DNA from: Cornus controversa
Lineage: Eukaryota > Streptophyta > Magnoliopsida > Cornales > Cornaceae
NCBI GenBank assembly: GCA_026545225.1
Contig: CM048846.1
Span: 53,188,270-53,252,269 of the forward strand
Length of the DNA stretch: 64,000 nucleotides
Reading direction: 5' to 3'
The first letter of the stretch is position 1. Every line of letters starts with the position of its first letter. This document shows positions 18,677-63,800 of this stretch, piece after piece. The notes beneath the pieces are model-generated. The model searched no databases. It was not told the origin of the DNA and saw nothing but the letters and a program-made list of their open reading frames with translations. A program made the translations under genes and the position numbers.

Positions 18677-18772
18677 ACCATGTATTATTTTTTTTTCTTC
18701 TTAGTTATATATGTAATGTGCCGTTAAGGATCCTCTTGCTTTGTATTCCAATATAGCTATTACTATTTCAGA

Positions 18773-18778
18773 AATAAA
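18773..18778 (+). terminator. polyadenylation signal of the RLP gene
   Basis: AATAAA lies about 100 bases after the stop codon, in T-rich sequence. It is kept in the duplicate at 21427-21432. Confidence 0.5.
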
Positions 18779-18779
18779 T

Positions 18780-20506: not shown

Positions 20507-20544
20507 TCGATACTTGCTGCATTCAACAAATCATTCGTCCTCTC

Positions 20545-23326: not shown

Positions 23327-23330
23327 GAGA

Positions 23331-25549: not shown

Positions 25550-25847
25550 GCGAAAGTAGTCAACCCATCGGGCGTCGTAGTTGGCGGAGGCGGCAGAGAG
25601 GAAGCGGTGGAACCAGCAGGAAAGGGGATACGAGGAGGAGGAGGAGAAGGAGGGTGGTGGTGGAGGAGAGAGAGAGGAGAGAGAGAGAAAGAGAGAGAGG
25701 TGGAGGAGATATGGGATTCTAGGGTTAGGGTTTGGGAAGGAAGGAGGTGGAGGTCGTGTTGGGGGAGGAAGGAATGGGCGGCGGAGGTGGCGGAGGCGAC
25801 GAGGGTGATGAGGTGGGTAAGGTTTTCTCAGAATTAATTGAATAAGG
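25550..25847 (-). other. open, CT-rich leader region of the ALP1-like gene
   Basis: The - strand is stop-free in frame with the ALP1-like gene and is rich in Pro, Ser and Leu codons from CTCTCTC runs (+ strand GA repeats at about 25664-25700). The residues just before the ATG, RWVDYFRMSK, look like the usual family N-terminal motif. Coding may therefore begin upstream, in a missed exon, or the 5' end may be damaged. No ATG lies in this frame. Confidence 0.4.
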
Positions 25848-25910
25848 GTTTATGGTGTTAAAAAAATTGTACCACAATAAAAAAATAAAAAAAATTTAAA
25901 AGGAAACAAC

Positions 25911-37250: not shown

Positions 37251-37291
37251 AAATTAAAGATGTCATAAATATCATAAATTAAAGGGTTGAA

Positions 37292-39720: not shown

Positions 39721-41918
39721 TCGAGTCCGTATCAGTGTAACATGCAAAATCGATTGTCATGATCGTGATTTTTTTTCGACCTTGCATGTAAGCCAAAAAC
39801 ATAACTGATACGTTACTTTTTACAACACAATGAAAAATAATAATTTTTATTAAATTTTATTGAATTTTTTAAGATCATTTAACACTATCAGTGACTTGTT
39901 TATAAATTCTAAGTCATCGTTCTTATTAAAAGAACATGATAATAATATATTTTACTAAATAAATGAATAGTAAAATATTTAAACATTAAATAAATTAAAA
40001 TTCATATCATATATATAACATTTGAAAGAAAGGGTAAATAAACATGTTAGAGTATACCAATAACAAAAATATATTACATTTTTAAAGAATGTTTTATGAT
40101 TTATTAATTTTTAAAGCAATTAATGTTCCTAAAGTATACTCTATCCACTAGACCATTATTGAATTTCTCAATCTTGACAACACATTTTATTGGAAGTATG
40201 AGAATTATATTAAAATAAAATCAGATTGGTAAAAGAAAAAAAAAGGTTTAATACATATATAAAAAACGTAATAAAAAAATTGCCAAACAAATATATATAT
40301 ATATATCGAGAGAGAGAGAGAGAGAGAGAGAGAAAATTACTAATTGTATTAGAATTCTTTTTTTTATTAGATTTCTCACACTTACTAACACATTTCATTG
40401 GAAGTATGAGAATAATATATATAAAGAAAGTTACCAATTGTATTAGAATTTTTTTTATTGGATTTCTCATTCTTAACAACACATTTTATTAATAGTATGA
40501 GAATTATTTTAAAATAAAATCAGATCGGTAATAGAAAAATAAAATAAAAAGAGTTTAATATATATATAAACAAATTACCAAACAAAAATAACTACTAATT
40601 CTATTGTCATCTATTAAATAAACTACTAATAAATCATTTAGTTATATTAAATTTATTTTGCTAATAGGCTCCTAAAAATTATCCACTCTTAATATACTCT
40701 TAAACTCTATGAATTATCTGAAATAATGATCAAATATATAAATCATTTATAGACAACATGAATTTATACCAAGAGGAGTACAAAGGAATTGAAGAGGTCT
40801 ACCATAACGTAAAATTCTATTATGCTTTATTTTTAAGTTGAATGATATCAGTTGCTCTTGATATTAGATAGTCTTTTTCGTAAATTCTTTCTAATTCTTT
40901 GAAGAATATATGCTAAAGATGGAATTTTTCATTATAACAAAAAAGAAAAAGAGAGTTAGTGTTTAATGAAATAACTTTGTTTATTATATTGCGAAAAAAA
41001 ATAGTGAAATCTGATGCTTCAAGTCAACAATTATTTTTGTTGCTCTTTTAATTGGTATAAGATCTTAATTTTTATTTTGTGATTTTTTTTGGTAGATTTA
41101 TCAGTGAGAATGGCATAGACTCAGGTTAGAGCTCTTTGGTGATTAATTATTTTTGAAGCTCTTTGTTTAATTCTCAAAGAGTTCGTGTTTACCCTGGACA
41201 TTTTCTGGTCATATATCCCAGCATGAGAATAGACTACTATCCCAAATCACTTGAAAACCTGAAACACTTAAGTTTTATGTTAGTATAATATTATTTCAAT
41301 TACTACAATATATGTATATATATGTATGTATATATGTGTATAATCAAAATAGTGACTATCCCAAAATAATGAGAATAGACTATTCGGGACTAATGAAACA
41401 CTTGTGTTTCATGATAGTAAAATATTATTTCAATTACTACAATCTATATATATGTGTGTGTGTGTGTTTGTGTAGTCAAAATAGTGAAAGTTTAGAACTT
41501 TAAATAATGGATACTACTACTACTAGGAAAATAAAAAAGTGGTAGTGTTTTTTTTTTCTTGGAATTTTGGAAAAGTGGTAGCTGTTGTCTTATATACAAT
41601 TTACATATTTATTTATTATGATTGTCGAAGATTGCATAGTAACAAACTTAGCAAACTATATGGCACAAAACTAGCTAAGGTCATTCAACTTATTTTTATG
41701 AGTTATTAATACTATTATTTTAGTTACTAATGGCTTGTAATATAAGTACTGAAAATATTGTCAATCATTAGTCCTTTTTCTAATTTTTTGACTTCTTGTA
41801 ATATGGTGATAATGATGTATTCAATATTTATATGTTTTTGATTCCAATAGATTGAAAGCCATAAAATCATAAAAGAATAAGGGATGACATCATAATATAA
41901 AAAAATTATAATGCAAGA
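39721..41918. other. AT-rich spacer with short tandem repeats
   Basis: No gene is present. About 40144-40590 holds three imperfect copies of a block with tttctca, acacatttt, attg and gtatgagaat. A GA microsatellite lies at 40308-40332, next to a TA run. About 41285-41500 is a roughly 145-base duplication (aatattatttcaattactac) with TATG and GT repeats. Confidence 0.55.
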
Positions 41919-42018
41919 TGTAGAGATCCAAAATTTTTCTTTTTATTTTATTTATTTTCTGAAATAGGAATTTAAATGTTTTGCATATGTTGTAAGTATG
42001 ATTTACATATGTGGGGAC

Positions 42019-43340
42019 TGATTCGTGTGTGAGTGCGTCTCAAATTATAATTATCACACTTCGCAATAGAACGAATTCCTTGTAGAATAGGGCTATCGAA
42101 AAGGGTGTCGAACCTCAGGGTTTATGGTCTGATGAGTTAGAGTACGGAATTAATCTAATTAAATTTAGAAAGAGTAGAAATCTGATTTTTATAATTAAAC
42201 TAATTAAAAAGCAAAATAAAATAAATCAAAGAAAAATAGAGAATGAAGATAATATGAGATAAATCTAGGGTATTTGACTTCACCACTAACTACACAATCA
42301 ATGGTCAATTGAATCAACTATGGGGGATTATATCATGCATAAGTGGTGTCAGTGGCTACAAGCTCACCTTCATCCGTCAAGAAGATAACATATGATTAAG
42401 GCTAAGTCATGGACTATCTTAGATTGGCATGGGCCATTTGCCTAACTACTCTAATCTAGGGTGCAGTATGGTTCATCTTCTCTAGGCATAATCTATTAAA
42501 GCCTATAATGATATATTTAGTGATTATCATTGTGTAATAATCGCTCTCATGATTACAGAAAATAAGAGAGATTGAGTTCAATAATAACAACTAAATATCT
42601 AAAACAAGATAAGAAATCATTGAAACTGAATATACAAGACTTTTATTGCTCAATTCTATAATAAGAATCCTCTAAATTACACAATCTATGCATGTATATA
42701 AAGGTCCCCAATAATTAAAACAATCAAACCATTGATGTTTTGTTAGGGCTACATCAAAACCCTAGTGGATGAATTAGCCGCTCATGATAGAAGAAGAAGC
42801 TTCAACGGTTGAGGAAGAAAACATCATCTTCATGAATTATGCGTAAGACTTCGTTCTCCAGTGGTTCTCCACTTCGGCCCAACTTTTGACCCACTAGAAG
42901 TTCGATTCACGGAATTTTCGTGAAATACAAACGTGTGCAGAATCGAATTTCGTTAAACCTACTCAAAAATTAAGTCAATTTGAGGCTCAAAAATAATACT
43001 TCTGGTCTGTTTTCCAAAATGGAATTAAGGCTGCATTAAGTGCAGATTTGGGCTTCAGGCCCGAAACCTTCTTAAGCAGCTGTAATTCTCTTGGACCTCT
43101 TCTATGGGCTGATTTGAGTTCAATTATGGTGTTGAATGGATCCATTTGATGTAGGCTTCATCTAACCTTCTTGGATGTCATCTTTAAAAGCCCAAAATCA
43201 TGGTTTTAACTGAAATAATCATTAAGGCCCTGAAAATACAGAAAACACTAAAACGAAGTAAAATAACAAAATAATCTATCACTAAGGGAATAAAATATAC
43301 AAGTTAAGAGGCTAGAATGATCAACATTCAACGCCGATCA
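42019..43340. mobile_element. solo LTR of an Athila-like family
   Basis: It begins tgattcgtgtgtgag, ends aacgccgatca, and is flanked by the exact duplication gggac at 42014-42018 and 43341-43345. Its first part (tatcacact, aatagaacgaattcctt, ggtgtcgaacc) resembles the start of the LTR at 50860-52269, and its last part (caacattcaacgccgatca) resembles that LTR's end. It sits inside the solo LTR that starts at 41919. Confidence 0.8.
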
Positions 43341-44388
43341 GGGACTATTTTAGAGGTCCGAAGAGTTTTATGAGACATTCAACTCATTTTAAAATTTTGG
43401 TTCATCGGGACCCGGGATAGCGGTCCGCTAGGCCTGGGAATCCGGATATTTTTTTTTCTGAGAAATTTTATTTATGGTTATAGACCAATTATGATATTTG
43501 GAGAGACGAAAAACTGATTTCGAGTCCATAACTTCTTTCAGATTCAAAAACGGAGGACGGAAAGGTATGTTAAGTGAGTAAGGGCATTTTAGTCTTTTTG
43601 TGACGTGGGGCTTATAAATATCTTTATACGGTGTGGGGTTTATAAATATCAAGGGATAGATATTTCAGCCACTATTTCTCTCTCTAAACATCCACCCAAG
43701 CTCCTCCTAATTTACTCTTTGAGTTCTTTAACTTATCTCTAGATTTAGAATATGCTAAGGTTCGATTCGAAGGACGCTGAAGAAGAAAAGTACGTTCTAC
43801 ATGACAAGGGCTTCGTTTACAATCGAAAAAGTCACGGTTAGACAACCTTGAGTATAGTTAAAGTGTGGGATAACTTGAAACTAAAGCTTTTGAGGTAGGG
43901 TGTGTGTGTTGCGTCTTCTAAATTCAAGTTTAATTTCATTTCTAGAGCATAAAATGAATGTTTTTCCTGAAATATAGGATGTATATAGAATTCTAGGTTA
44001 AAATCTTTGTTCTATATGGTTCTACAAATGTTTTTCTTGCTACAAATGGTTAGTATATGCTAAGAGTGATATGAATTGCTTATATGTGCAATGTGGGGCA
44101 TGAATTTCATTTATGGGATTTTTGAAGAAAAATGATAAAAACCTAATTTGGGGGTTAAGCTTATGTATATGTGTCTTACGATTCTTGTGTGATATGCTAA
44201 AATTGAACTAGGGCATGAAATGGGTGCAATGCATTGAAATTGTGATTGTGAATACAAAATATGAAATATTTTGCGTGAGTGTGAGGTGTGTCTCGGAGGT
44301 GGCTCATGGGAAAGTAGTCAAGGAACATATCTCCATGGGTTGAAAAACCTCAAACTTGCACAACATGGGTGGTAACCGCATGGTTTAG

Positions 44389-44737
44389 TGTTGTGAAAAT
44401 TAACAGAAAAGAAGATCAAACACGCAAACAAAGACACACAGATTTACAAAGTTCACCCAAAATCTAGGGCTACGTCCTTGGTGTTGCAGGGTTTTCACTA
44501 TGATGAGAAAAACATAATCCGATTACAGAGAGTTTAAACTATATATATAGGCACCTCATAGGGCTATATAACAAAGTGTGAAATTATCAAAATACCCCTC
44601 TAAAAAATCTGGGTCGGGGCTAAGCCCCCGAACCCCCGCCTTTGGGCATGGGGGCGCTACCCCCTGCAACCCCCGGCGAACTTATAACAAAGTTAGGCTA
44701 AGGTGTACAGTATAATCAAGCTCCACACTTCTTAACA
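44389..44737 (-). repeat. 3' LTR of the nested copia element
   Basis: The LTR runs tgttgtgaaaattaac to cttcttaaca on the + strand. The pair differs visibly from the 5' LTR, so the insertion is not recent. Confidence 0.8.
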
Positions 44738-47703
44738 ATCTCCCACTTGGAGACTGATAATATCAATCTACAAACTCCCTCGTGCTCATGCCCCAAACCA
44801 TAACAAAACACCGCATCAACTATTTTCTCTGTCCTCAAAGCTCGAACACCTATTGAAGCTAAGCATAGCTTCAGTTTCTCAATAGTCACTACCTTGGTTA
44901 ACATATCTACTGGATTCTGACTTCCATGGATCTTCTCAAGTGATAACACCTTGTCATCTAAAAGCGAACGAATGAAGTGGTACCTCAATGTTGTGTGCGG
45001 TTGCACTACTCGCAATTTATAAATTTACCACTCGAACTTAAGCGAGCCAATTGTTTCATTATTGTTTAACCTTGCACACCTTTTAGATGCGAACACTCTA
45101 TGCTTCCTGAGGTACAGAGGCCCGGTTTAATGAGTGAGAAGGCTTATTGCCAATTATTTGTTTTATTTTTTTATTTTGCAAAGTAATTCATTCTTCAAGA
45201 AGTTCAAATAAAAACAAACATTTTCAAAATTCTTCAAACGACGTATACCCCACAATTGAGTGCATGTGTGCATCTTTGTGCCGTTAAAGACAAATTTAGG
45301 GGAAGAACTATACAATATTCAAAAACTGAACAAAAATGTAGACTGTTCTAACCTAACACATAATTTCCAAAAGTGCGAGTATATTTTTGGATGTCAAAGC
45401 TCCTAATTACAAGATGCATTTATCGATGACATTATGGTTATCACTGTTTCAACTAGAAGAACGTCATGACAAACATGAACTAAAGATGCAATATGTACAA
45501 AAATTTACAAAAAATAACCCAGTGTAGTGTGTGAAATGTATGTAAGTGTACCGTATCCCCAAACTTAAATTAAACATTGTCCTCAATGTTTGAACTTAGC
45601 AGAGTTAGAATAATGGTACCGACGATTTGATGAATATTAAAGTAGTGGGTACACGGGACAAGTAGGGCATCAAAACCTGCACAAGTACAAGTACATACTA
45701 GCATAACATACATGAATTGAAAAAGTAAATAAGTGCGAAAAGTAAAAGAAAAATGGCAAGAATAGAAACATAAAGGAAAGCTGATAATATTCCATTAATT
45801 CAAGCATGTGTGATACAAATGCTACAATTTGTGGAATACAAAAGAATTGCTTACTAAGCAACAAAACAAAGTGCCCACACAGCACTAGACAGTTCTATGA
45901 CTATGAATTCATAAAAACAAAATACTAGAAATGAAATGAAAATACAAAATACATGGAAAATAAAAATAAAAATAGCTAAAGCAGAGGGGGCAGCGGCGGT
46001 GCAAAAGTAGAAGCAGACAAATCAAGCGCCAGTTGAAGCAGTTGCTGGATCTGTCACTAGCCTGCAATAACTGCGTCCAGACGCGCGACAGTCTGCTGAC
46101 GATGCTGAAGTGCAAGCTGGTTGTCTTGCATCAGACTAACCATGCCTTCGCCAATAGTACCTAAAAAGTCATTGGTTTGCTGGCGATGCTCAGCAAACTC
46201 TAACTGCAAAGATTGGAGGCAGGCGCTGAGACACTTTAGACTCGTGGCTAACTAATCGTACTCGGTGCGGCTCATGGGAGAGGTATCTGAATCAGCCTCA
46301 GCCATGTCAGTATTAGTATCCTCCCTATCAGAGGCGTAAAATATCTGGATCGCCCTCTTCAACCTCAGGGGCGACATTTGGAACAAGCAGTAAGTGTGTA
46401 AGCATCTTACTCCACCTCTGAAAAGTAAAGTGAGGGGGGGGGGCATCACTCGCAACCTCGTCTGGAAGAAAATGAAAGTGGGCACGACGAAGGAGGGCTG
46501 TGACCAGAAATGGAAATAGTAGGCAAACATTGGCCGTCCGCGGAGTGGGACGATCGACGAGCTGCTCCCATACCCGGGACATCTGGCCCCAGATAATAGT
46601 CAGAACAGAAAACAAAAATTTGGAATGAAGGGCAGACAACGCCCTCAAAAAGTCACCATGGTGATCCGCTCGGTGGCCCATTGGATGTGCATTCTGTTGA
46701 AAGATTGTGTAAAAAACCACAATTGTCGTGGGCACAAAGATTTGGTGGTGTAGGAATTGGTGGGAGGATCAAAAAATGACCCCAACACATGCATCGGATC
46801 ATGGAAGAAATAGAGAGGGTGGAAGGAATGTCAAGAAAATGGGGTATCTCCTCTCCCAAGTGAAGGTCGTCGGGCTTCTCATGGGGACACCCGATGCAAA
46901 TAGCAATGTCACGAAGGGTGACAGTAATGGCAACACCGTCAACAGTGGTGCGTAATATATCTGGGGTGTCTAATTAGTAGGACATGTTCATGTAGAAGAC
47001 ACGAACAAGTCTGGGGTAGAAGATTTCAGAAGCAGGCACCAAGAGACTAAGCAAATGACACTCGTTGAGGGCTGAAAGAGACCATGCTGCATATGGGTCC
47101 GCTGTAAACCCGTCGACATCCACCGAATGCTCGAGGTGGAAGTCCCTGGTCGCCCAGTGATCCCAAGGAATGTCACAAACAGGAATAGGAGGAGCCTCGT
47201 CACTTGCCATAGTCTGTGAGAACTCAGAAGGGTGTAGATAGAAGGGAACCTGGCCACACAAATTACACCCTTGAGTCAAAAATGGCTCTAAAACTGATCA
47301 TATTGATTCAAAGCAAAATGTAAACTGAAAATTATACATCGCACATATACTAATCATGTATATATAGCCTCTCCGCTCTTCCAATCATGACCAAATGAAA
47401 AACATGTATATGAACATGTCTAAGACCCACAAAAATGGAATACAAAACTTCTAAATTCCTTAAGTAAAAGTATACACAAAGGAAGCACAAAACTCTTACC
47501 TTGTAAATCACTAGCGGAGATGGAATGCGCGAACTCCGTTCTTTAAGAGAAAGGAAAGGGAGGATCTAGATGATGGGGCTTGCTTAAGAGGTCTGGACGT
47601 GCAAAAGAACATGAAGATTTGCCAAGAAGAGAGGAAAAAATGAGAGGGAGAGATGAGAGACTTGAATACTAAGTGACTGCATACGCAGTCACGTGCCTCG
47701 GTG

Positions 47704-47908
47704 CGATGCATCGAAGTGGTTACTTCGATGCATCGTCGTTGTCAATGCATCGATCTAGAGGTTTCGATGTATCGAAGCTAATGATGCATCGACCATCTAT
47801 TGACACAAGGTGTGGACGCTGCTAGAATTGACAGAAAAAATGGGACATTTAAAGATCAATGCATCGTAGCTAATGACGATGCATCGAAGTGGCTACTTCG
47901 ATGCATCG
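47704..47908. repeat. pair of perfect hairpins in the Athila-like element
   Basis: At 47704-47735, cgatgcatcgaagt is followed by a 4-base loop (ggtt) and the exact inverse. At 47877-47908 the same 14-base stem has loop ggct. Further atgcatcga strings lie between. A third hairpin of this design is at 51963-51994 in the 5' LTR. Confidence 0.85.
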
Positions 47909-48082
47909 TCGCTTCCTTTGACTGGAATTTTGCAAAATTGTCCCAAGTACGAAAAAATTTAAGTTTAAGCCCTCAATTCACACCTCTCACACTCAGATAC
48001 TTCAATAATATTTAGATACATTCCTTTTAGATTTGAATGGGTCACACGGAGCATGATAGGACCGCATAAATTATTACCAAGT

Positions 48083-48625
48083 TTAACGTCTACGGCAAGA
48101 CGTGTGCAGTAATTCATGCACAATATCTACCCCAAAGCATTCACTCTCAAGATTGGAAGTATGATGAGATGCATCAAAGGTATCCAACCTAACGTTCATA
48201 TTCCCAAATGAGATATCCATCACCCCGGTACGACAATTAATGCAAACATTAGTTGTAGCCAAGAATGGGCAACCTAGAATGATTGGAATATGCTTTGTAG
48301 GATCTTGGATAGGTTCAGTATCAAGGACTATGAAGTCCATCGAAAAGTAAAATTTGTCCACTTTGATGAGAACATCCTTAATTATCCCACGTGGCTGCCT
48401 CACCGATCGGTTGGCAAGTTACAACACAACTGTGGTCGATTTAAGCTTTCTGAGCTCTAATTTCTCATAGACCGAATAAGGAAGTAAGTTAACACTTGCT
48501 CCCAAGTCAAAGAGGGCTCGTTTGAATTCATGGTCACCAATGACACATGAGATTGTGGGAGCACCCGGATCCTTGAACTTTGGAGGGGCGTTGTTTTGGA
48601 GAATTGAACTCACTTGTTCAGTCAA
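48083..48625 (-). other. protease region of the Athila-like fossil
   Basis: The - strand gives an aspartic-protease-like stretch (ISCVIGDHEFKRALFDLGAS) and, in a following frame, GCPFLATTNVCINCRTGVM, both usual in Athila pol upstream of reverse transcriptase. The region is part of the broken element 44989-52269. Confidence 0.7.
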
Positions 48626-49259
48626 TTGGACTTTCTTAGGAACTTGGTTCCTAGATTTACGCTTTTGAGTGCATAAATCCTTAAGAAATTTAGCATAGGA
48701 GGGAATTTATTTTATAACATCAAGAAGAGAAAGATTGATTTTTACTTGCTTGAAGATTTCTATCATATCTTGTAATTTCTCTCCTTGTTTCCCGAATTGA
48801 GTTGGTTCCCTTAATCTTTGAGGAAAGGGAATAAGAGGTTCATATGAAGCCGATTGGTTTGGAGTTAATGAAAATTTAGCTTCAATGATTTTATCCTTTC
48901 CTTTTTCTTTTGGATTATTAGAGAACTCTTTTGAATTTATTGGAAGGTCTTTTAGATTAAAAATGGGATTGTCTGGATTTATCGGTTGCTCACATTCTTT
49001 CTCTCTTATCTTATCAAACGGATTTTTTAGCACTTTACCACTCCTTAGAGTAGTAATTGATTGAGCTTGTTCTTTGTTGAACTCAAAGGAATAGGAAGCA
49101 TTATCAATTACTTAAACTCCGTTCGGATTTGCCACCGTTTGGCTAGGCAACTTTCCACCCTCTCTACGATTCATTGCATTGGCTAGCTATCCCAATTGGG
49201 ACTCTAGTTTTGCAATAGATTATGAGTGGGTGTTGATCTTTTGAGTATTACTTTTGATA

Positions 49260-50500
49260 TTGCCTAAAGCTGCCAAAACCTTGTCCTCAAAACTTGGATT
49301 TCAAGAAGGTGATTGATTGGGAGTGTAGTAGAAACTTGAATTTGAATTGGGTTGATAAAGTCTAGGTTGGAATTGAGATAGACCTTGTTGTCTAGGTGGT
49401 CCCCGAGGTCCTTGATATTGGCCTTGGTTCCCATATTTGAATTGGGTTTGATCTCTTCATCCAGGAGTATAGGAATTTTGGTATGACACTTGACCCAGCC
49501 TAGAGTAAAGTTCATTTGCTTGCTCTTGTGAAAATTTGAGATATTGCCCTCCAAGAGGGCAATCCTTTATATAATGTGAACACACATCATATGTGGGATG
49601 AAGGGTAGGATTAGGAATAGTAGGATTGGAGGAAGAAGAAGAAGAACTGGCCAACATAACTTGATCCAATTTCTTTTCTAAAGCTTTTATCTTTCTATTT
49701 GTTGCTTGCTCCTTACGCATTTCAAAGATACTTTCAGTTTGGGCGTTAAGAGGAGCGACTATCTTATTTTTCCTTTCATTAGAAGAACGATGAGATGAAT
49801 TTTCGCTCAAGTTCGAAAAGAGTATCCATGCTTCATCGGGGCTTTTTAGAAAGAATGTACCTCCACAACTAGCATCAACCATTTGTTTGTGAGGCTCCCT
49901 TAAACCATCATAGAATCCTTGCACCAATTGCCATTTGAGAATAGCATGGTGTGGGCAAGACCTCAAAAGATCTTTCATCCTTTCCCATGTTTCATGAAAA
50001 ACTTCTCCCTCCATTTGAGAAAATCCAATGATGGCTCTTCATGCATCATGAGTCTTTTCTATTGGGAAGTATTTCTTTAGAAACTCTCGCTGCATTCTGC
50101 CTAAAAGTTAATAGAATTTGGCTCTAAGGAATTAAACCATTGTTTGGCTCTATCCTTAAGTGAGAAGGAAAAAAGACGAAGTCTTAAGTTGTCCTCTGCT
50201 TGTGCATTCAACTATAAAGTCGAGTACACTTTTAACAATTCATCAATATGTTTATAAGGATCTTGGTTTGGAAGCCCATGAAAACAACTAAGAAGATTAA
50301 TTGTTGAGGATTTAATTTCAAAATTGTTCCTCTCCAAATTCGGGAAATGAATACAAGAAAGAGATGCATAGGTAGATGGACAATAAAAATCTCGAAGAAT
50401 CTCACCGCCCAGTGGGGGTGGTAAGATCGGATTTTGTGGAACATTTTGGTTGTCATTATTCACCATGGTTTCTCTCCTATGTTCTCTAAACAATATAGGG
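49260..50500 (-). other. gag region of the Athila-like fossil
   Basis: The - strand contains ETWERMKDLLRSCPHHAIL and LVQGFYDGLREPHKQMVDAS, the retrotransposon gag domain of Ty3/gypsy elements. A Ser-rich linker and a partial knuckle-like segment follow. It is broken into several frames. Confidence 0.75.
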
Positions 50501-50859
50501 TCCCTAGAAATGCTACTATGTTGTCTAAGAGTTCATTCAAGTTCAAGGTCACACGACAACAACGGTAATGACAAAGATCTCCTACCTTGCATATGAATAA
50601 GCGAAAAACTTTAAACTATGTGCAAAAACAAAAATTTAAATTTCTAAGTGCAAGAAAGTTAAGTACTCTACTCACAAGGAACCAAGCTTAAGTCATGATG
50701 CCTTGATTAGACAAGTACCTACAATGAAACACTTAAGAAATGAAGATAAAAATACTTACAAATAAATAATATAAAGAATGAATTAAATTAAAATTTAAAC
50801 TAGACTCAATCCTATAATTTAGCAATTTAACCGTAGTCCCCAGCAACAACGCCAAAAAT

Positions 50860-52269
50860 TGTTGTGTGCAGTTGCACTACTCGCAATTTATAAATTTATC
50901 ACTCGCAATAAAACGAATCCTTGAAGGATATGGCTCTAAGTTGAGGGTGTCGATCCCACAGAGACTACGTAGGTATAACTCACTAAAGGTTGAGGGTTGG
51001 TTCTTGTTTAACTTACAACCGTGTTGGTTGTTGCTTACTCTACCTTGAAAGCATAAAAGTAATTTAAATACAAAGGTTTAGAGAAGAATAAAGGACTAGG
51101 GTTTGACTTCCTCGCTAACCTCGTAATATGTCACACTTAAAATAAATTGGGATAAATTCATGCAAATGTGTACTAATGACGCGTTAACAAGTCCCACCTA
51201 CAACGACATTGCCAAGAAAATACACATACATTAACATACTATAATCCATCTTCGAAAAACGTGATTTTTCTTATTTACCTAATTACCTACTTCTAGTAAA
51301 ATCATCGTCACATGATTTTTCTGCCTACCTACTTATCTAATTGAAGCAAAATCACATTCTCTAAGCGTGGACTATGCAAATCTAGCTATGCATGTTATAG
51401 TGAAAACTAGTCTCAAGCCATCACGTGTAGTCCTTGTGAAACTTACAAGTGTTTGAAGATCATGTGAGAAGTTTAAGTATTCTAAGATAAGAAGAAAAAT
51501 CACCACACATGAATATGAAAAATTTGTAAACTTATAATTATATAAGGCACAAGGAAAGAGACATATACATCAAATACATAAAAATCCCTAATTCATTGAA
51601 GTTAGAACATATTTTCAAAGTTAGGGTTTGTGAAAACCCTAGAAAAGGATTAGTTGATCATGGTGGGCTCGAAGCACTCCATAGACAGAGATGGTCCCAT
51701 GCTCAAAATGGTCTTCAAGGCCTTACAAAGCCCTCTTTGAAGCTTTCCCTCTCTAGAACTTCACTTTCTCTCTCTAGAATTCTAAAATATGCTCTCTATT
51801 ACAAGAATTGTATGTTTTCTTTTTTTACATATTCTCTAGCTATAAAATTGATATGAGGCTCAAAATATCATAGAAATTCCGTGCAAGGTTTTATCCAAGA
51901 AAAATTAGACAAGTGGCAAGTGGAGAAAATAATTGCAGAAAAATATCTTCAGTAGGTACGGGCGATGCATCAAAGTAGGGACTTTGATGCATCGATCTTC
52001 CTTCTTCTATAGATCTTTAACTTTTTATCTTTTCGACTCCGGTCTTGACACGCCATCCACTATTCCTTGATGTAGACTTTTCATGAAGTATGGTAAGAAA
52101 TAGGAATGCATTGTTGAACTGATAAAGGAATCGAATTACGCCACACTCTGAGTTTGAACCTGAAATCATCCAAAACATAAAAACATATAAAAACTATACA
52201 ATATGTGCAGCTATGGGATCAAGATATATAAGTAAAGGCGCGAGAATATATAACATTCAACGTTTATCA
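50860..52269 (-). repeat. 5' LTR of the Athila-like element
   Basis: The LTR is 1410 bases long, tgttgtgtgcagttgcac to acattcaacgtttatca on the + strand. The hairpin cgatgcatcaaagt, loop aggg and its exact inverse lie at 51963-51994. The related solo LTR is at 42019-43340. Confidence 0.8.
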
Positions 52270-54450
52270 CTCAACTATATATGGCTTTGTTCTGAAATGA
52301 TACGCCGGATTCTTAGCAAGATGAATAGCACTCTGACTGTCACTATATAGAATACTGTTCTCTCGCCCCTTACCTAACTTTTCCAAGAACCTCTGTAGCC
52401 AAACCATCTCCTTGCTCGCTTTTATAACTGCAACATATTCAGCTTCTGTGGTCGAGAGAGCCACAATCTTCTGCAACTGAGAGACCCAACTCACTGCCGT
52501 ACCACCCAAAGTATACACATACTAGTAGTACTCTTCCTATTATCCATATCACCAGCCAAGTCTGAATCAACATAACCCTGCAACGCAATATCCGACCCAG
52601 TGAAACATAATGATGTATCTGTGGTATCCTTCAAGTATCTAAGGATCCATTTTGCTGCCTCCCAATATTGTTTGCCTGGATTACTCATGTACATGCTCAC
52701 AACTCCCACTACATGTGCTATATCTGGCCTGGTACAAACCATGACATACATCAAACTGCTAATAGCTAAAGCATATGGAACATTTTCCATGTGTGCTCGT
52801 TCCACTTTTATCTTAGGTGGCTACTCTTTAGTTAGTCTAAAATGACTAGCTAATGGGGTGCTCACTGGTTTTGCATTTTGCATGCTGAACTGGTTAAGAA
52901 CTTTTTTAACATACTCTGCTTGTGAAAATTTTAGAGTACCACCCACTTTGTCCCTGTAAATCCTCATACCAAGAATCTGTTTTGCATCACCCAAATGTTT
53001 CATTGCAAAGTGCTCAGACAACTATCTCTTCAGATTATTAATCTCATCAAGGCTTGAACCTGCAATCAACATATCATCCACATATAAAAGTAAAATAATA
53101 TAACTGCTGTTAAACGTTTTCACATAACAATAGTTATCTGTCTGGCACCTTTTGTAGCCACTACTACACCTGAATCCATCAAACTTTTTGTACCATTGTC
53201 TCGGGGCCTGCTTCAAACCATACAAGCTCTTTTTTAGCTTACATACCAAACCCTCCTTACAAGTCATTATGAATCCCTACGGTTGTCTCATGTAGATGTC
53301 CTCCTCTAAATCACCATAAAGGAAAGTAGTCTTCACATCTAACTGCTCAAGATGTAAGTCTTCTGCAACCACGATTCTTAGTGCCAATCTGATTGTAGTC
53401 AACTTCACAACCGGAGAGAAAATCTCAGTGTAGTCAACACCTTCCTTCTGTTAAAATCCTTTCACAACTAATCTGACTTTGTAGTGTTTGCTGCCATCAT
53501 ATTCTTCCTTAATTCGGTAAACCTACTTGTTATGTAAAGCCTTCTTGCCTTTTGGTAGTTCAGTTAGCTCCCACGTTTGATTTGACATGAGTGAGTCCAT
53601 CTGATCCTGCATAGCTAACTCCCACTTGGTTGAATCATTAACCTGCACTAATTCATCATAACACTCTGGCTCACCACCATCAGACAACAACAACTAGTGT
53701 AAAGAGGGTGAATACTGTTGTGTAGGTCTAGAGATTCTGGAGGATCGTCTTACTGCAGTCATAGGTGTGCCTTGTTCCACATGTGGAACTATATTTTTTG
53801 GATTATTCTGAACTCTCCTCTGCACATCATCCTCAATGATTTCCTCCAACTCAACAAACCCATTACTTTCAGCATGAGCATCTGCATCAGTAGATTCTAC
53901 TGTTGATCTGTCCTTATACATTACTTTCTCATTGAATATGACATCTATGCTTCTAATAATCTTCTAATTTTGATCATCCCAGAACCGATAACCAAACTCA
54001 TCAGTGCCAACCCAATAAAAGTACACTTTTTGAATTTTGGATCAAGCTTGCTTCTACCATTAGAACTTATGTGCACATATGAAAGACAGTTAAACACTTT
54101 TAGGTGTGAAAGGTTACCTCTTTTCTGCTTCAAACCTCCTCTGGTAAGTCTCCATCTAAAGGAACAGAAGGTCCCTCATTGATCAAGTATGCTGCAGTGT
54201 TAACTGCATCAACCCAAAACATCTTAGGCAACCCAGCATGTATCCTCATACTCTGAGCACGCTCATTCAAGGTTCTGTTCATGCACTCTACGACACCATT
54301 TTTCTGCGGTGTTCTAGGAACAGTCTTCTCCATTCTGATCCCACTAGTAGCACAAAACTCTTTGAAACCTGTATCGTCATACTCACCCCCATTATTAGAT
54401 CTCAAACACTTTATCTTCAATCCTGTTTCATTCTCCACCATGGCCTTCCA
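52270..54450 (-). other. copia integrase, reverse transcriptase and RNase H region (fossil)
   Basis: The - strand parts are integrase core with NNGGEY and TPQKNGVVE (about 54130-54441), reverse transcriptase with SLYGLKQAPRQW and YVDDM (about 53022-53267) and the HLGDAKQILGM segment (about 52821-53021), and RNase H with TTEAEYVA and DSQSAIHLAKNP (about 52267-52518). The region belongs to the copia element 44389-59314 and is broken. Confidence 0.85.
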
Positions 54451-57355
54451 TGTAGAGACTATGACCTATTTTGGTCGATTTTGCATTTTTCGCATTATAA
54501 TTGCCATAAATACATTTTGAGGGGTGATTAGCATGTTTCGAGTGTGGGTAACATGTTTGGAAAGTGTTTTAAGGGTTTTGGTAAGTTTTTGAAAGATTTG
54601 GAGAAGCTTGACTTTTTGGTCAAACCGAGGCCCAGGATGTGACTTAAGTGGGCGTGAAAATCCAGAAAATTCTTAGAAATATTTATTTTTGAGATTGACA
54701 TAGATTAAATATTTAGAGAGTTAAAGAAGTAATTTCGAGACCGTAGGAGTTTTTAGAATCAAAAACGGAGACCGGGAGGGTACGTTAAGTGGCTGGGGGC
54801 ATTTTAGTCTTTTCGCGGGCTAAGAAATTTTAAAAATCAAGGCTAAGAGATCTTAGCCATTATACACGGCTATTTCTCTCTCTATATTGCTCCCACTTCT
54901 TCTCTCTTCATTCTCTCTAGGTTTTGGAGGTCTTCGGGTGTGATTCACGTTCCGCCGAAGAAGGGAGATACGTAGGGGATGGCTAGGGCTTCCCTTTGAG
55001 CCGATCAAAGTTGTGGTTCAACAAGGTATACATTGCTGGGATTTTGAGAAGTGCTTGGAAGGCCTTCATTTTCAAGGTAGGGGTTCTTCTTCTCTTCTAA
55101 TTGTCGATTCTAGGGTTTTGGGTGAAGATGAGAGGTGTAGGTTGTGTACCACATGCTTTAGGAAAGTGAGAGGGGTGGGAAGTCAGATTTTCTCCTTCTC
55201 TTGAATCCTATCTTTACGTATTTGGTGTTCCTTGTTTTGGTTTTAGCATGTGGGTCAAAGTGAATGGAAGAAATTGGGTATGTAGGTGTTAGGTGCTCAA
55301 TTTGGGTTTTATGTGCAAATATGTAAACTTGTGTCATATATATGATTATATGAGGAATATGTGATGGTTAAATGTATGTTAGTTCTATGTGCTAAAATTA
55401 TGCATTGAGTGTCTCATGAGTAAAGTATGCTAATTTTGAAGTTGTATGCATATGAGTGGATATATGCATGTGTTATACATATATGTGCTATATGTGGTGT
55501 GTGGTGATGGGAAACATGCTTTTTACCTCTTTTAGTATCAATGAGCATGAGTAGAGTATGAAAATAAAATGTCATGTGTTTATGCATTCATATTGCATAT
55601 GTGGGAAGTTATGGGAAAATGATGCAAATGAGGTACACGGGGCTTCGAAGTGGTCCAACCATGTTGTGAAATGTGGTGAAATTATCCATTACATATGGCC
55701 CTCAGAGTGGACTCGCCATACTAAGGCTTGATGCCTAGAATCAGAGAATGTCTAAGAATTGTGAGCCTCGGAGTTGTCCCCTCACTCTATGGTAATCCTA
55801 TACATTGCTATGGTAGAATGACCCTTCGGAGTTGTCCCGGTCATTGGATGGTTATCAGAGGTGTCCAAGATTACATGATCCTCGGAGCTGGCCAATCATG
55901 TAGGGTATCAGATGAGGACCGAGAGAGAGAGCATTTACTTTCCTTAATGATTTTTTGTTTGAACATGTTATACATGATTCATGAAATATGCAATCACCTT
56001 GAATTACAATTGTTGATTTGTTTATGAGATTATGGATATGGCATGTAGTGTATTCATATGCATTCTATGTAGGTCAGTGTCAAGTCGGCACTTAGGAGGG
56101 TTGGGGTATCTCTACTGAGCCACAGTGGTGCTCACCCCTTTATTCTAAACTCTTTTACAGATAAAGTGTCAATGACGGATGAGACATGAGTGTCCAAGTG
56201 GGACTCTAGTAGTGTTTCTGCTATCTCTTGGATGTTGTACATTTTGTGGCTATCCATGCCGACTTGCATGTGACTCCTTTTTGAGTTGTGGATATACTTG
56301 GACAAATGTACTTTTGATGTATGTATTGGATTTTAAACTTGTTGGGTATCGAAAGACAATGGTTTAGTTTATGTAATGCTTGTGGTGGGCATTTAATTCA
56401 TTTGACGACATTTTCCTTATGAATGGATTGTGGTTGTGAAAGAGAATGATTCATTTTGATGTATAATTGAATCATGATTATGATTTTGAGTATGTGATTG
56501 ATGTTGGTACCTTTCAATTATGTTATGGATCATGTATGAGAGGTTCTAGGGTGATAGAAGGTGGATTGGGCTCCAAATGGACCATGTATAGGATTGCTGG
56601 GAGTCCTGGGAAGGGCATTTTGATCGTGCGAAATGCCCATTTCGCACAATCGAAACCCCCATTTCGATTTTGTGAAGTGGTGGTGATTTATGATGATTTT
56701 TAGGGTCCAGACGGGGGGAATTTCGCACAATCGAAACCCCCATTTCGATTGTGCAAAATATTGCAGGTTCAAGGTCTTGAGAGGGTGAAATTCTCACACA
56801 ATCAAGATTTTTTTCGTACAATCGAGATGCCAGTTTTGCACAATTGAAATCCTATTCTCGCACAATCGAGAGTAATTCACAGCATTTTTCCAAACATCGT
56901 TTCGACGTAATTTCTTCGTTCTAGATTGAAATTGAGTGTGGTTTTTTTTAAAATTGAGTATTTTTGGATTCTCTATCCAATGGTATAAGTCTTAGTTTCA
57001 GATTTTAAACACAGTAAGTTTTGAGGCTTGAAAGTGAGTGAATTCTTGAAAGTGTGGACAAGTAAATTTTCACTAAGGTGTATGGTTAAGGTGGAGTTGG
57101 GTGCATTCATATGCAAGAATTGAGTTAAGCTTCCACGGTAAATGAGGGTAATGAGGGTCTATTGGGCTAAATAGACAAGTTAACCTCCAGTTCTCCGGGA
57201 GTCAGAAGTCGGGGTGTTATAGCAAGGTATCAAACCTCGATACTATCGCATGAGTGTGGTTAAGATCATTCATGGGGTTGAGTGAACGGGTTCGCGACCT
57301 GAGATTCGGGGCCGGTCTGGGGGAGTCCCGGCGGTCCGGATTCAGGGGCGTGACG
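54451..57355. mobile_element. solo LTR of the large Ty3/gypsy-like family, second copy
   Basis: It runs tgtagagact to ggggcgtgacg and is flanked by exact ttcca at 54446-54450 and 57356-57360, inside the copia integrase. The 2905 bases are non-coding. Segments match the LTR at 41919-60805, for example gcattttagtctttt near 54810 and 43590, and ttggattctctatccaatgg near 56964 and 60470. This is a younger insertion than the copia. Confidence 0.8.
56626..56757. repeat. hairpin cluster in the large LTR
   Basis: At 56626-56647, gtgcgaaat pairs with atttcgcac across a gccc loop. At 56721-56757, tttcgcacaatcgaaa pairs with tttcgattgtgcaaaa apart from one base. The older LTR copy has the same design at 60173-60194 (gtgcgaaa and tttcgcac). 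Confidence 0.75.
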
Positions 57356-58067
57356 TTCCATTTCTTAAAAGTGTCAAATACATCAGATTTATTTTTTTAA
57401 AAATAAATCCATACCTTTCTTGTCGATTCATCAATGAATGTAACATAATATGATGAGCCGCCAAGAGATAAAACTGGAAAAGGTCCCCACACGTCTATAT
57501 GAACCAACTCTAATTTTTCTGTCTTAGGTTTCTTACCAGCGTTTAAAAAACTGACATTTTTCTATTTTTTGAAGATGCAATCCTCGCATAAACCAATTTC
57601 CACTGATTTAATTCCTAACAGTTTCCCCTTTGACAGAAATGTCTTCATCCCCTTCTCACTCATATGACCCAGCTTATGGTGCCACATGTTTGAACAACGT
57701 CTGAATTAGCAATTACAACAGCATTCCTGGTGTTTGTCGTGATGTAGAGAGTATCAATCTTGTTTCCACAAGCCACAACCATAGCTCATTTGGTGATTTT
57801 CCACAAACCACCCATGAAGTTTACTGAATGCCCTTCATCATCAAGTTGTCCCACAGAAATCAAGTTTCTCTTCAAACCAGGAACATGTCTCACATTCTGA
57901 ATCTTCCAAACGGTCCCATTAGATTGCTTAATTCGAACATCTCCCTTACCCACAATATTCAAAGGTTCATCATCAGCCAAATAAACCTTTCCAAAATCAC
58001 CATTAACATAGTTCTCCATGATTTCACGATGTGGAGTAGAGTGAAATGATGCACCCGAGTCAAGAAC

Positions 58068-58781
58068 CTATGACTCAACTGGACTATCCACGCTCAAAAT
58101 TAAAGCATCAGCAATATCTTCTGTGGCTGCGTTTACAGATTCCTGCTCCCCTTTGCCATTCTTCCTTGGTGTCCGACAGTCTTTCTTTGAATGTCCCTTC
58201 TTTCCGCAATTCCAACAATTGCCAAGAAATTTTCCAGTACTCAACTTGCCTTTACTTTTAGATTTCAATTTACTGCAATCCACGCCTGTTCTTTCAGAAG
58301 TTCTTTCTCTGCTCTCTATATTTAGAGCAGATCCAGATGGTTCGCCTGTTTCTCTCCTACAAATTTCTTCACTGAGAATCAAGTCCCGACCATCATCAAA
58401 CTTCAACTTCCTTTTTCCAGAAAAAATTCTCACTGCCGTAACAGTACCGTTCCAACTTTCTAGTAAAGAGGATAATAAAATCAACGCCCTGATCTCATCA
58501 TCAAAATTAATTTCCACAGAGCTCAACTGAGTTGTAACTGTGTTGAACTCATTTAGATGGTTCACCATTGACGCACCTTCTGACATCCTCATATTGAATA
58601 AACGCTGCATCAAATATACCTTGTTGGACGCAGAGGGTTTCTCATACATATCTACAAAGGCTGCCATCAAACCTGCCGTTGTCTTCTCCTTCGCTATGTT
58701 GAAGGCGACGTTACGAGACAAAGTCAATCGAATAACTCCTAGAGTCTGTCGATCAAGAATAGCCCAATCAGCATCTTTCAT
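58068..58781 (-). other. gag region of the nested copia element (fossil)
   Basis: The - strand encodes a UBN2/gag-like stretch (DADWAILDRQTLGVIRLTLS), a region with VYLMQRLFNMRMSEG, and a CCHC zinc knuckle (CWNCGKKGHSKKDC). It is part of the copia fossil 44389-59314. Confidence 0.85.
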
Positions 58782-58953
58782 GTCTTTTGGTTTCGTTCCT
58801 GAAAGAGGCTGATACAGATTTTTCTGATATAGTCAGTCTTCAATCCGCATCTTCTAAAACCCAAAATCTGTTCCGTTGAACTTTCCTTCAATCCTGATCT
58901 TTCCTTCTTCTGCACCCATCGCTCCCACTCGAACCCGAGGCTCTGATACTAGT

Positions 58954-59314
58954 TGTTGTGAAAATTAATAGAAAAGAAGATCAGACACGCAAACAAAGAC
59001 ACACAGATTTACAAGGTTCACCCAAAATCTAGGGCTACGTCCTTGGTGTTGTAGGTTTTCACTATGTTGAGAAAAACATAATCCAATTACAGAGAGTTTA
59101 AACTGTATACATAGGCACCTCCTAGGGCTATATAACAAAGTGTGAAATATCAAAATACCCCTCTAAATAATTCGGGTCAGGGGCAAGCCCCCAAACCCCC
59201 ACCTTACGGGCAAGGGGGCACTGCCCCTAGCAACCCTCACCAACTTACAGCGAAGTTGGATACACAAAATTAGGCTAAGGTGTACAGTATAATTAAGCTC
59301 CACACTTCCTAATA
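58954..59314 (-). repeat. 5' LTR of the nested copia element
   Basis: This is the partner of 44389-44737, with the primer-binding site on its inner side (ggctctgatac on the + strand at about 58939-58949). Confidence 0.8.
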
Positions 59315-59368
59315 GTTAGTATCCCGTAGTAACCATGAACTTGAGATATGGAGCTTTGGTACGTATCT

Positions 59369-59394
59369 TTTGTGTGTGTGTGTGTGTGTGTGTG
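59369..59394. repeat. GT microsatellite
   Basis: A simple GT run lies in the outer solo LTR, just past the copia insertion point. Confidence 0.9.
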
Positions 59395-60810
59395 AGTGTG
59401 AACCAAATTCGAGAGAATATGTTGAGTCTTATGTATAGCTTATATGAATTTACATGACTTGTGTGAATTTTAATCTGGTTTGGATTATGTTATATGTTAC
59501 ATTTATAATGGAAATGAGCATTATGCATGAATTGTCTTTATGTGTTTGTCAAGTTATAATTGACGTATATGCCATGACTTGAGTGAATTGAGTGTATGAG
59601 CTTGTGATTAGAATGCTAGGGAGCATGACACGTAGTTTGTCGAGCATGATTTGTGTTTTATGCATTGAACATGAAATGTGGACTTGAATGGATTGCACGA
59701 CATGTTAACCTTAAGCCATTGAAATTGCTCATCCCCCTATACTAACACTTTTAGGATATAGCAAAGAGGTGGATGATGATGCACAACCATAAGTTGGACT
59801 TAAAGTTGAAGAACTCTTCCTTTTTGGGGTGTTTTTGGTTGAGACTTGTATATAGGTGTCCATGCTAGTTTGTGGCATGTGGACTAGCTTAAAAATTATG
59901 TTTGCACATTTGGATTATGGATATATAATAGAACTTTAATGTTCTTTTCATGTATGGTAAGTTTTCAACATTTGAGGCTTGTATAAGAATATGTGTTTTT
60001 GAAGCATGTGTAAGGAATATATGGATTTGTCTTTATGAGATTCAAATGTATATTTTGGAGTATGTGTATGATTTTCATGTTGAGTAAATGATCCTAGGTT
60101 GTTAGGTTGAGATTCGGGCTCAAATGGACTATATGTAATGTTGCTGGAGGTTCTGCAGAGCGCATTTTGCATGTGCGAAATGACCGTTTCGCACGATTGA
60201 AACCCATTTTTCGATTGTACGAAGTGGTTGTGAAATATTATAGTTTCTGGGGTCTCTGTAGGAGAAATTTCGTATGTGCAAAACCCCCTTTTCGCATATG
60301 CAAAAAATTGTAGAGTTTCAGATTTCTGAAGGCCAGAAATTTTCGCATGAACTTCGATTGTGCGAAAATTTTGCATGTGCGAAATTTCAATTTTGTCCAA
60401 ACTTCATTCAGGTGTATTTTCTTCGTTTTAGATCGAAATTGAGTCTGGATTTTTTTGAAATCGAGTATTTTTGGATTCTCTATCCAATGGTGTATGTTTC
60501 AGTTTCAAATTCCAATTTTACAAGGAGTTTAGTTTTGGAATTGTGTAATTTATATGGGTGGCAAGTTTGTAACTCTTGAGAAATGTATACAATATATGAT
60601 GTTTGATTATGTATATGAAATACATGTGCTTAGTGTAGTGAATTACAAATGTATAGGTTTTGAACAAGCTCAGTGATGACTTATGGGAATTTGGGGCATG
60701 ATAGAAATGGTATTAGAGTATGTGGGTGATGACACGTGGTAAGGAATGAATTGTTCACCTCCACTTTCTATATCGATCTTGATATTAGAAAGTAGGGGCA
60801 TGACACAAGA

Positions 60811-63800
60811 GAAAGCATATGCGAATTAAAAATTCTCTACTCGTAATTATATCTATCATTAATTCTACCGTCTTCACAAACATCGTATCTCAAGGACAAG
60901 TAATCAAAAAAATGAATGAAGGGTCTTTGAATCCCACACCACAAATTGCTATAGCTTAAACATGGGCTGGTAGTATGGATTCTTCCGAACTGCATAAAAA
61001 CTTATGTCTTTATATAGGAAGAATACCACAATAGCTCTCCTAGCCATATTGCGTGAGGGTAGTGCAATAACCCTTCCTACAGCACAAGAAAGAGTAAGTT
61101 ATCTAGATACATCAATATCTTTTATATTTTATATTTGTTGGATACTTGATAGTACAAAGTATATACCTATATGAACTATTTTATCTATTCATAAAATATT
61201 TTTAATCATTTGTACTACTATTAAAAGTACATGGAGTTTCTATTTTTTTTTTAATTTTCATAATGTTGTTTTAATTTTTATAATATTATTGATTAAATGT
61301 ACATAGAGTTTCCATACATTTTTATATTTTTCATGATATTATTTAAATAGAAATGATATTAAACCCAAACGTCACCACTTTCTACCTAATTTGTTTTGAC
61401 AACATTACGGAAAAAAAATGAATGGGAATGCAATTCGAAAAAATCATAAATCAAGTCAATGCAATATTTTGGTTGCATTACAAAAAATAAATAAATTTGT
61501 ACTATAAGAGGAGCAACTTGCAAAACCTAATATCAGTTCCATGAATTAAATAAAAGAAAAATATATATCTTCAACGACATTTTTGAATGGATTTGGTAGT
61601 TTGATTTTTTCTTTAGATTTTTTTTTTATTGTTCTAATTTGCTTATATAATTTTTTTGGGGTGTGCATAAGGAATGCAATATGTTTGTTGGCAAGTAAGA
61701 CCCGTGACTAATGAAAATTGTAATTTATTTTCATTGCTTACAAAGAAATGATTCAATATCAGGAGTATATTTGTCTTCCCATTTTTTCAATCTGAGCTAT
61801 TACTTCAAAGTTAAAATCTGTAACTACACGTAGCAATGATTGCCAAGTCTACATCATATCCCAAGATATAATAAAGAATTTATGTCACCACAAACAGAGG
61901 CTAAAGTAAGTGTTGGTTGATGTTAAATTGATATATTTATGTAGCAAATTTATCAATTTAAGCTAAATTTTATTTGTTGGTGCAAATATAAATTTAAACT
62001 ATATATTTAAAATTTATTTAATTTATTGATTTGATAACCCTTAACATTGTAATGCTATATGTATTTCTTTTTTAGTGTTTTATTCATATCTTGATCATTT
62101 TTAATCAATTACGTCTCATGTTTGCCTTTTGTTTCAATTTAATTTTTGTCTTTCGATTTTTGATTTTCACTATTGAAAACAATGTGTAGAAAATTTGGCC
62201 TTTAATTAATAAAAATAAATTAACAATGGAGAAACTTTCCCGAACTTTAGTTTGAGAAAAATCACTTTATAATTGTTTTTATTTTTCAATTCAAATGGTT
62301 ATTCTTTTAACCATGTTGAGGATGTTTGACTCATAATAATTTTATTCATCAAAATTTTGTTTTAGTCCTTGATGTGATACTCTAAAATTGTTATAAATAT
62401 GCAAAAAAAAAAAATTAATTAAAGTTTCAAGTTGACGTTTAACCACGTGCATCGCACGTGTCTTTTTTACTATATATATATTATGTATGTATTAGTGGCA
62501 TTTTGGTCACAACAAATTGGTATTTTAGAGTTTTCAATATTTCTTAATGTGAGAAATTAACTATTCTAACTGTTATACACAAATTTCATGTCTGAAAATC
62601 TATGAACAAAAATGAGTAACAAATAATCAATTTTATTAATTTCAGAAGAAAAAAAAGAGTACAATCCTCTGTGGTCAATTATTTTACAACGAAGAATCCT
62701 CCTCTGATTCAATCTCACTGATGTTTGGTGCAATAGCTTTACAAGTTTGTTTTTGAACCGATTATGACAAATTTTCTTCAAATCTTCAAGATTGAGGAAG
62801 GCTTGACTGGATTTTCGATCGAGGACTGATGAAGCTTTGTTTCGAACGGTGGATTGAAGGTCTTCAAAGAAGAACGACACTTGTGTGGCATGCTTGTTGT
62901 TCTTTGTCTTTAGATTTTTCAAAGATTTAAGGTATTTGAATTAGAACGACACTTTTGTGGCATGCTCGATGTTCTTCGTTGAGGCTCGACAGACCTTAAG
63001 CATTATCTTGATCTCTCTATTGCATATCCCCCGTGAATCTCCCTGTTTGCATGTCCCCATGAATGTGTAGGGTGTCTTGTATTTATAAGCCAAATAGTGA
63101 GGTGTTTATTTTATTAACTCTCCAATAATTGTGGCAACTTCCATGAATAAAAATATTTTGCTCCTTTTATATAAAAATAAATTTAAATTTGAATTTGAAT
63201 TTGAATTGTTACACTTTTTTTAAAGGACTGAACCTTCAAGATTTTGACACATGTCCATTGATGGGACCCACAATCATGAAATTTAATTGACCAAAAGTAT
63301 TTGACTTTTTGATCGATTGACCGGTGACTAGACCATCACAAAATTTACGTGTCACATACAGACATATACGTATTGTGTCTCAGTGGTATTTCGCTTGCAA
63401 CAAATTGGTATTTTGGAATTTTAGTATTTTTTGATGTAAAAAATGATCAAGACTATTTTTTAACAGTCAATAAATAAAGAAAGTCACTTTAGGATATTAC
63501 ATAAAATTTTAGGTAGTTATATATGCGAAATATTGTATTTTGAGCTTTTAGTATTTCTTGACTTGAGAAGTGATCACGACTCTTTTTTATTTCGAAGAAA
63601 GTCACTTTAGAATATTACATACAGTTTATATAAATATAAATATAAATAGATATATATATATATATTATCCATTTATTTTTTTTATTTTGCAGTACTTAAA
63701 GTTATAATGTAACACATATGGCGTGCACCTTTTGTGTTGGGTAACCAATACTAAACAGGGACTGAAATCGTCTCCAGTTTGATGGTGGCCATTTTGTCTC

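Follow-up and report, generated by a model that had tools for sequence, protein, structure and literature searches.

We analyzed a 64,000-nucleotide stretch of the Cornus controversa genome (assembly GCA_026545225.1, contig CM048846.1, forward-strand positions 53,188,270 to 53,252,269; hereafter the window, numbered from its first letter) and located five elements of the long terminal repeat (LTR) type lying inside one another between positions 41919 and 60805. The locus is best explained as an ordinary nest of plant LTR retrotransposons, built by five insertions and three elements deep, a reading to which we assign a probability of about 0.9. We count as established the boundaries of the five inserts, their target duplications and containment, the domains of the Ty1/copia member and the collinearity of two long solo LTRs. 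The lineage names and the events that reduced several members to fragments are worded more cautiously below.

Five LTR-type insertions and their target duplications

The elements were located by reading positions 41801-61000, by self-comparison of the window and by testing each boundary. The outermost is a solo LTR on the plus strand (41919-60805), possibly of the Del/Tekay lineage, which measures 2,629 bp without its inserts, runs from TGTAGAGATC to GGGGCATGACA, and has TG/CA ends and a target site duplication (TSD). It contains a second solo LTR, flanked by GGGAC (42019-43340), and a Ty1/copia element (44389-59314). The copia element in turn contains an Athila/Tat(OTA)-type element (44989-52269) and another long solo LTR (54451-57355, the inner LTR). 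Three of the five insertions (the outer, GGGAC and inner ones) are now solo LTRs. The deepest containment path passes through three elements, namely the outer LTR, the copia element and either the Athila-type element or the inner LTR; the four layers described in a first-pass annotation of this DNA were an overcount.

Exact duplications flank four of the five elements: CAAGA for the outer LTR (41914-41918 and 60806-60810), GGGAC for the solo LTR within it (42014-42018 and 43341-43345), CTCAA for the Athila-type element (44984-44988 and 52270-52274) and TTCCA for the inner LTR (54446-54450 and 57356-57360). The copia flanks, TTTAG on the left (44384-44388) and GTTAG on the right (59315-59319), agree in four of five bases. 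As a null we used the frequency of 5-mer pairs at identical spacings across the window, where exact pairs occurred at 0.0020-0.0024 of positions (88/45103 at the spacing of the outer LTR) and pairs matching in at least four of five bases at 0.024-0.029 (0.026 at that of the copia element). Since each of the four exact duplications faces a chance rate of only about 0.002, the TSDs were counted in favor of a nest. The element ends are also supported independently of the duplications: those of the copia element are given by its own LTR pair, those of the GGGAC and Athila-type LTRs by their alignment to each other, and the starts of the two long LTRs by a common motif, as described below. For the plant LTR elements that it surveys, the available part of PMC6317226 puts the share with 5-bp duplications at 93.4%.

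The first-pass annotation had proposed nested LTR elements with target duplications, and the five boundaries and duplications were found where it had put them. The self-comparison that it suggested recovered all five elements in place. It had also reported that the four named duplications are exact and only the copia flanks differ, as we observed, and its lengths after subtraction of inserts (about 4.7 kb for the copia element and 2.6 kb for the outer LTR) agree with the 4,730 and 2,629 bp obtained here.

The copia element and the inserts that interrupt it

The region 44389-59314 is a Ty1/copia element on the minus strand, with gag at high coordinates: it has an LTR pair with a duplication, an integrase before the reverse transcriptase (RT), gag and RT of copia type, and a primer-binding site (PBS). 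The 5' LTR (361 bp, 58954-59314) aligned with the 3' LTR (349 bp, 44389-44737) with 26 mismatches in 346 sites, a Kimura two-parameter (K2P) distance of 0.080 (bootstrap 0.051-0.113); with shorter ends there were 24 differences in 342 sites, or 0.074. The PBS, TAGTATCAGAGC, adjoins the 5' LTR at 58940-58951 and has one mismatch to TGGTATCAGAGC, which we take to be the tRNA-Met primer sequence. Pfam domains followed one another on the minus strand in the order Retrotran_gag_2 (PF14223), zf-CCHC, Pol_BBD (PF22936), gag_pre-integrs (PF13976), integrase and RVT_2 (PF07727).

The integrase core (rve, PF00665) is split by the TTCCA insert, profile positions 3-40 lying at 57400-57561 and positions 56-102 at 54133-54450. 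Both matches are weak and under the Pfam cut-off (E 0.017 and 0.19), as is a match of the second piece to rve_3 (E 0.0013, under its own cut-off). The profile nevertheless continues across the insert, in agreement with the earlier placement of the inner LTR within the integrase. The position of the CTCAA insert, past the RVT_2 pieces in the downstream direction, is the one expected of RNase H, and the flanking pieces have motifs that we presume to be those of RNase H; the Athila-type element likely sits in this region of the copia element.

The Athila-type element and a related solo LTR

The Athila/Tat(OTA)-type element is on the minus strand, measures 7,281 bp and is internally deleted. Its sole full LTR (1,410 bp, 50860-52269) adjoins a PBS-like sequence, TGGCGTTGTTGCTGGGGA, which may resemble a tRNA-Asp primer site; the primer of the OTA group is a non-Met one. 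Only the last 46 bp remain of the other LTR (44989-45034): 44 of 46 positions are identical to 50860-50905, followed by 13 of the next 40, and the adjoining 45035-46300 scored 24.0 against the full LTR, within the range of 20 shuffles (maximum 28.3). Pieces of gag (PF03732, E 1.8e-4) and protease (Asp_protease_2, E 0.0023) were matched, both under the Pfam cut-offs, and between the protease region and an extra open reading frame (ORF) at 47297 there is about 0.8-1.1 kb. RT, RNase H and integrase are taken as missing. This damage, including the loss of most of one LTR, adds detail beyond the first-pass annotation. Further matches in pieces of the element, to SWIM (E 0.003), SNARE (E 0.015), DUF4788 (E 0.11) and Rep_1 (E 0.31), were under the Pfam cut-offs and were taken as chance.

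The GGGAC solo LTR (1,322 bp) lies 100 bp into the outer LTR and is related to the LTR of the Athila-type element; its minus strand was assigned from the PBS side of 50860-52269. A local alignment of the two had 867 identities in 1,217 positions (score 95.3; maximum 24.8 in 100 shuffles), with the right-hand ends coinciding exactly and the left reaching to within 7 and 3 bp of the ends. When the whole LTRs were aligned, they agreed at 658 of 1,282 positions. The 80-80-80 rule asks for 80% identity over 80% of the length; it is quoted in PMC6527191 and, in the available text, applied there to RT sequences. By the 80% yardstick these two LTRs would not belong to one family.

Two further observations concern the Athila-type element. 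A hairpin-like motif around cgatgcatcgaag is present both in its internal region (47833-47918) and in its LTR (51924-52003), with 62 of 79 aligned positions identical (score 30.7; maximum 24.6 in 8 shuffles). In addition, Rfam snoR71 matched the plus strand at 49941-50038 with 40.7 bits (cut-off 40), antisense to the gag piece, and retroelement sequence may perhaps have been included in that Rfam family; a literature search pairing snoR71 with 'retrotransposon' found no paper with both.

Two long solo LTRs of one lineage

The inner LTR (plus strand, 2,905 bp, ends GGGGCGTGACG) is collinear with the outer one. Perfect matches to TGTAGAGAYY occurred twice in the window, both at the starts of the long LTRs; with at most one mismatch, 16 were found and 14 expected. 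Outer positions 43364-44313 aligned in order to inner 54584-55514 (score 102.7; shuffle maximum 30.1), and outer 59516-60633 to inner 55929-57129 (score 204.2; shuffle maximum 35.3), with 60 shuffles in each case. A full-length alignment of the two had 1,396 identities in 2,541 positions (55%), compared with 42.6-44.4% in ten shuffles, and the best blocks reached about 72%. K2P distances in the alignable blocks were 0.36 and 0.35, more than four times the 0.080 of the copia LTR pair. Neither the overall 55% nor the roughly 72% of the best blocks reaches the 80% that the 80-80-80 rule asks for.

The inner LTR inserted after the copia element, whose own LTRs differ by 0.080, so that its share of the 0.35 divergence should be only about 0.04. 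We infer that the source families of the two LTRs already differed when they inserted, rather than that the outer copy is very old. The two most likely represent different families of one lineage, and it is this lineage that appears to have inserted both before and after the copia element. The previous claim that the family of the outer LTR was active at both times is unsupported at 55% identity and K2P distances of 0.35-0.36; its lineage-level version survives.

As to the identity of this lineage, both long LTRs have GGG at -8 to -10, counting back from the 3' terminus, a feature of the type A U5 attachment (att) ends of Del/Tekay elements, and both lengths fall within the range of 1,143-4,831 bp for Del LTRs in the available text of PMC4029996. 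Neither LTR is accompanied by an internal region with the coding domains (RT, integrase and chromodomain) by which the lineage is defined, and Del/Tekay (chromovirus) is only possibly the appropriate name.

A second U5-like end inside the long LTRs

Each long LTR has an additional U5-like end, at 60693-60703 in the outer copy (GGGGCATGATA, 102 bp before the true 3' end) and at 57211-57221 in the inner copy (GGGGTGTTATA, 134 bp before it). A primer-like 12-mer follows 4 bp on in the outer copy (TGGTATTAGAGT, two mismatches to the tRNA-Met site; whole extent 60693-60719) and 3 bp on in the inner copy (AGGTATCAAACC, three mismatches; 57211-57236). The pattern GGGGYRTKAYR, composed after those ends had been seen, matched the window 8 times against 0.28 expected, with four matches in the long LTRs and four in Cassandra-like elements described below. 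Primer 12-mers with up to three mismatches numbered 31 in the window, where chance would give 34.5. Four comparisons of the tails around the extra end between the two copies scored 10.0-13.0, none of them reaching the 95% value of its 200 shuffles. Comparison of the tails inside the inner copy gave 11.5 (95% value of shuffles 14.5), and inside the outer copy 17.0 (95% value 16.0, shuffle maximum 21.5). A literature search on LTRs that enclose a PBS or have tandem ends found no paper matching three or more of five terms. Since primer-like 12-mers are not enriched and the tails do not align between copies above shuffles, the extra end is a weak lead. It might suggest that the long LTRs of this lineage grew by swallowing their own LTR-PBS junction, which we regard as doubtful; in that event the LTR end would have shifted outward past an old primer site in the common ancestor of both copies.

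Order of the insertions

Containment places the outer LTR before both the GGGAC LTR and the copia element, and the copia element before both the Athila-type element and the inner LTR. As nesting yields a partial order alone, the sequence of the five insertions is not fixed by it, contrary to what had been claimed: 8 of the 120 possible orders are compatible with containment. Nor does nesting order the recombinations that left solo LTRs, which may precede or follow later insertions. LTR divergence is an imperfect clock for such loci; about one quarter of nested elements exceed the LTR divergence of their host element, according to the available part of PMC7251063.

Alternative explanations

One different account of the long LTRs is that a single family gave rise to both, inserting once ahead of the copia element and once after it. 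They share a TGTAGAGA start and a GGGGCRTGAC end, and their collinear blocks score far above shuffles; as nothing sets a maximum age for the outer LTR, decay over a very long time could in principle account for the difference. Set against this are the low identity and the K2P distances already given. The outer copy alone would have had to accumulate about 0.3 changes per site, the inner one being younger than the copia element, and at that level all ten bases of the outer duplication would survive with a probability of about 0.05. We therefore consider a single family improbable. It is also conceivable, though very unlikely, that the long elements are not LTRs and instead represent a non-autonomous long element with terminal motifs that makes 5-bp duplications. 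Neither is adjoined by an internal region, a pair of PBS and polypurine tract or a second repeat copy, and the two disagree with each other at att positions described as conserved among Del elements; the TG/CA-type ends (the inner copy ends in CG), the 5-bp duplications, the Del-like GGG near the 3' end and, in the outer copy, a TATAAATA-like box with a CT-rich stretch after it (read by eye) are nevertheless features of LTRs. An artificial join of unrelated contigs is hardly credible: only one assembly was available and no reads were seen, but five separate target duplications and an integrase profile that continues across an insert would be hard to obtain from misjoins.

Several observations weigh against the nest of LTR retrotransposons as we describe it. 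The status of both long elements as LTRs rests on their ends, duplications and collinearity, and no full-length relative was seen. According to the available text of PMC4029996, in which the letters themselves are not printed, the conserved Del att positions are -1, -2, -3 and -6 in U5 and 3, 6, 9 and 10 in U3; the outer and inner LTRs differ at U5 -1 and -6 (the outer ends in ACA, the inner in ACG) and at U3 9 and 10, and our confidence was lowered because of this. Collinearity of the outer flanks with 54451-57355, proposed earlier as a test of the outer LTR, held for the two large pieces and failed for the initial 99-bp piece, which on its own scored 18.0 against the inner LTR (shuffle maximum 28.2). 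No Pfam model, RNase H included, matched either copia piece flanking the CTCAA insert; of the earlier assignment of this insert to RNase H, the position downstream of RVT_2 stands and the domain itself was not recovered on either side. The Athila-type element has 32 minus-strand pieces of at least 45 amino acids; the 19 of them submitted to Pfam gave no RT, RNase H or integrase match, and the extra-ORF pieces submitted had no match to Athila ORF-1 (pfam03078), a weak test for a domain present in 16% of Athila elements according to the available part of PMC6317226. Finally, CpG depletion was tried as an independent age order and rejected: the values (outer LTR 0.69, inner LTR 0.62, GGGAC LTR 0.62, Athila-type element 0.62, copia element 0.43, window 0.58) formed no gradient along the nesting.

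Other features of the window

A Cassandra-like terminal-repeat retrotransposon in miniature (TRIM) is present twice on the minus strand (19830-20492 and 22537-23199), owing to a 2.7-kb tandem duplication that includes it (17966-20623 and 20620-23330, 95% identical). Its LTRs are about 280 bp long and carry a segment resembling 5S rRNA (Rfam RF00001, 25-31 bits, below the cut-off of 38), and a perfect TGGTATCAGAGC primer site lies 2 bp after the LTR. The duplication also copies the end of an apparent leucine-rich repeat receptor-like gene, read by eye. In the self-comparison, 2451-7246 and 32782-37282 appeared as arrays of many shifted self-matches resembling tandem satellite-type repeats; the first also showed inverted matches, at about 2451-3480. 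A 405-codon open frame on the minus strand (24635-25849) matched DDE_Tnp_4 (E 6.9e-16) and is perhaps a Harbinger-type transposase or a domesticated relative, a name that we assume.

Proposed history and comparison with known systems

In the history that we favor, a nest of LTR retrotransposons, an element with long LTRs, possibly Del/Tekay, would have inserted first and is now a solo LTR. An Athila-related element, also reduced to a solo LTR, and a Ty1/copia element would later have entered it. The copia element would afterwards have received two insertions: an Athila/Tat-type element entered what is likely its RNase H region, and a long-LTR element of the outer copy's lineage entered its integrase, the latter again leaving a solo LTR. 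Each insertion was probably a 5-bp staggered one made by integrase, the solo LTRs may have formed by LTR-LTR recombination, and illegitimate deletion could have removed most of one Athila-type LTR together with RT, RNase H and integrase. The lineage names in this scheme are likewise provisional.

Individual members resemble known groups in part. The Athila-type element is like the Athila/OTA superclade, as covered in the available part of PMC6317226, in its weak matches to gag and protease, in an additional ORF region and possibly in its PBS-like site; it differs in that no RT, RNase H or integrase was found in the pieces searched, one LTR is almost gone and ORF-1 had no match. The long LTRs are like those of Del/Tekay chromoviruses in length and in the GGG at -8 to -10 of their U5 ends, and unlike them, as far as the available text of PMC4029996 goes, in having no coding region here and in differing from each other at several positions called conserved.

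The locus as a whole is a fresh instance of a well-known structure and opens no new question. As a clean three-deep nest with its scars intact, it may serve as a teaching case or as a check for software that reconstructs nests. Its main lesson is a caution: resemblance at the ends and a collinear layout are not enough to place two solo LTRs in one family, and nesting orders the events only in part.

Nested insertions are common in plants, and so are solo LTRs. For wheat chromosome 3B, the available part of PMC4290129 counts 30,199 nested insertions, stacked at most 8 layers deep, as well as 3,998 solo LTRs flanked by TSDs, and that of PMC6911290 gives 1,491 nested pairs across twelve plant genomes, with LTRs and the integrase domain as the regions least hit. 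Here, two of the four nested inserts lie in an LTR and one of the four in the integrase, a tally that is biased because the outer element survives only as an LTR. Compared with both surveys, in the parts available, nothing at this locus is different in kind; it shares with them younger elements inside older ones, TSDs, solo LTRs and truncated copies.

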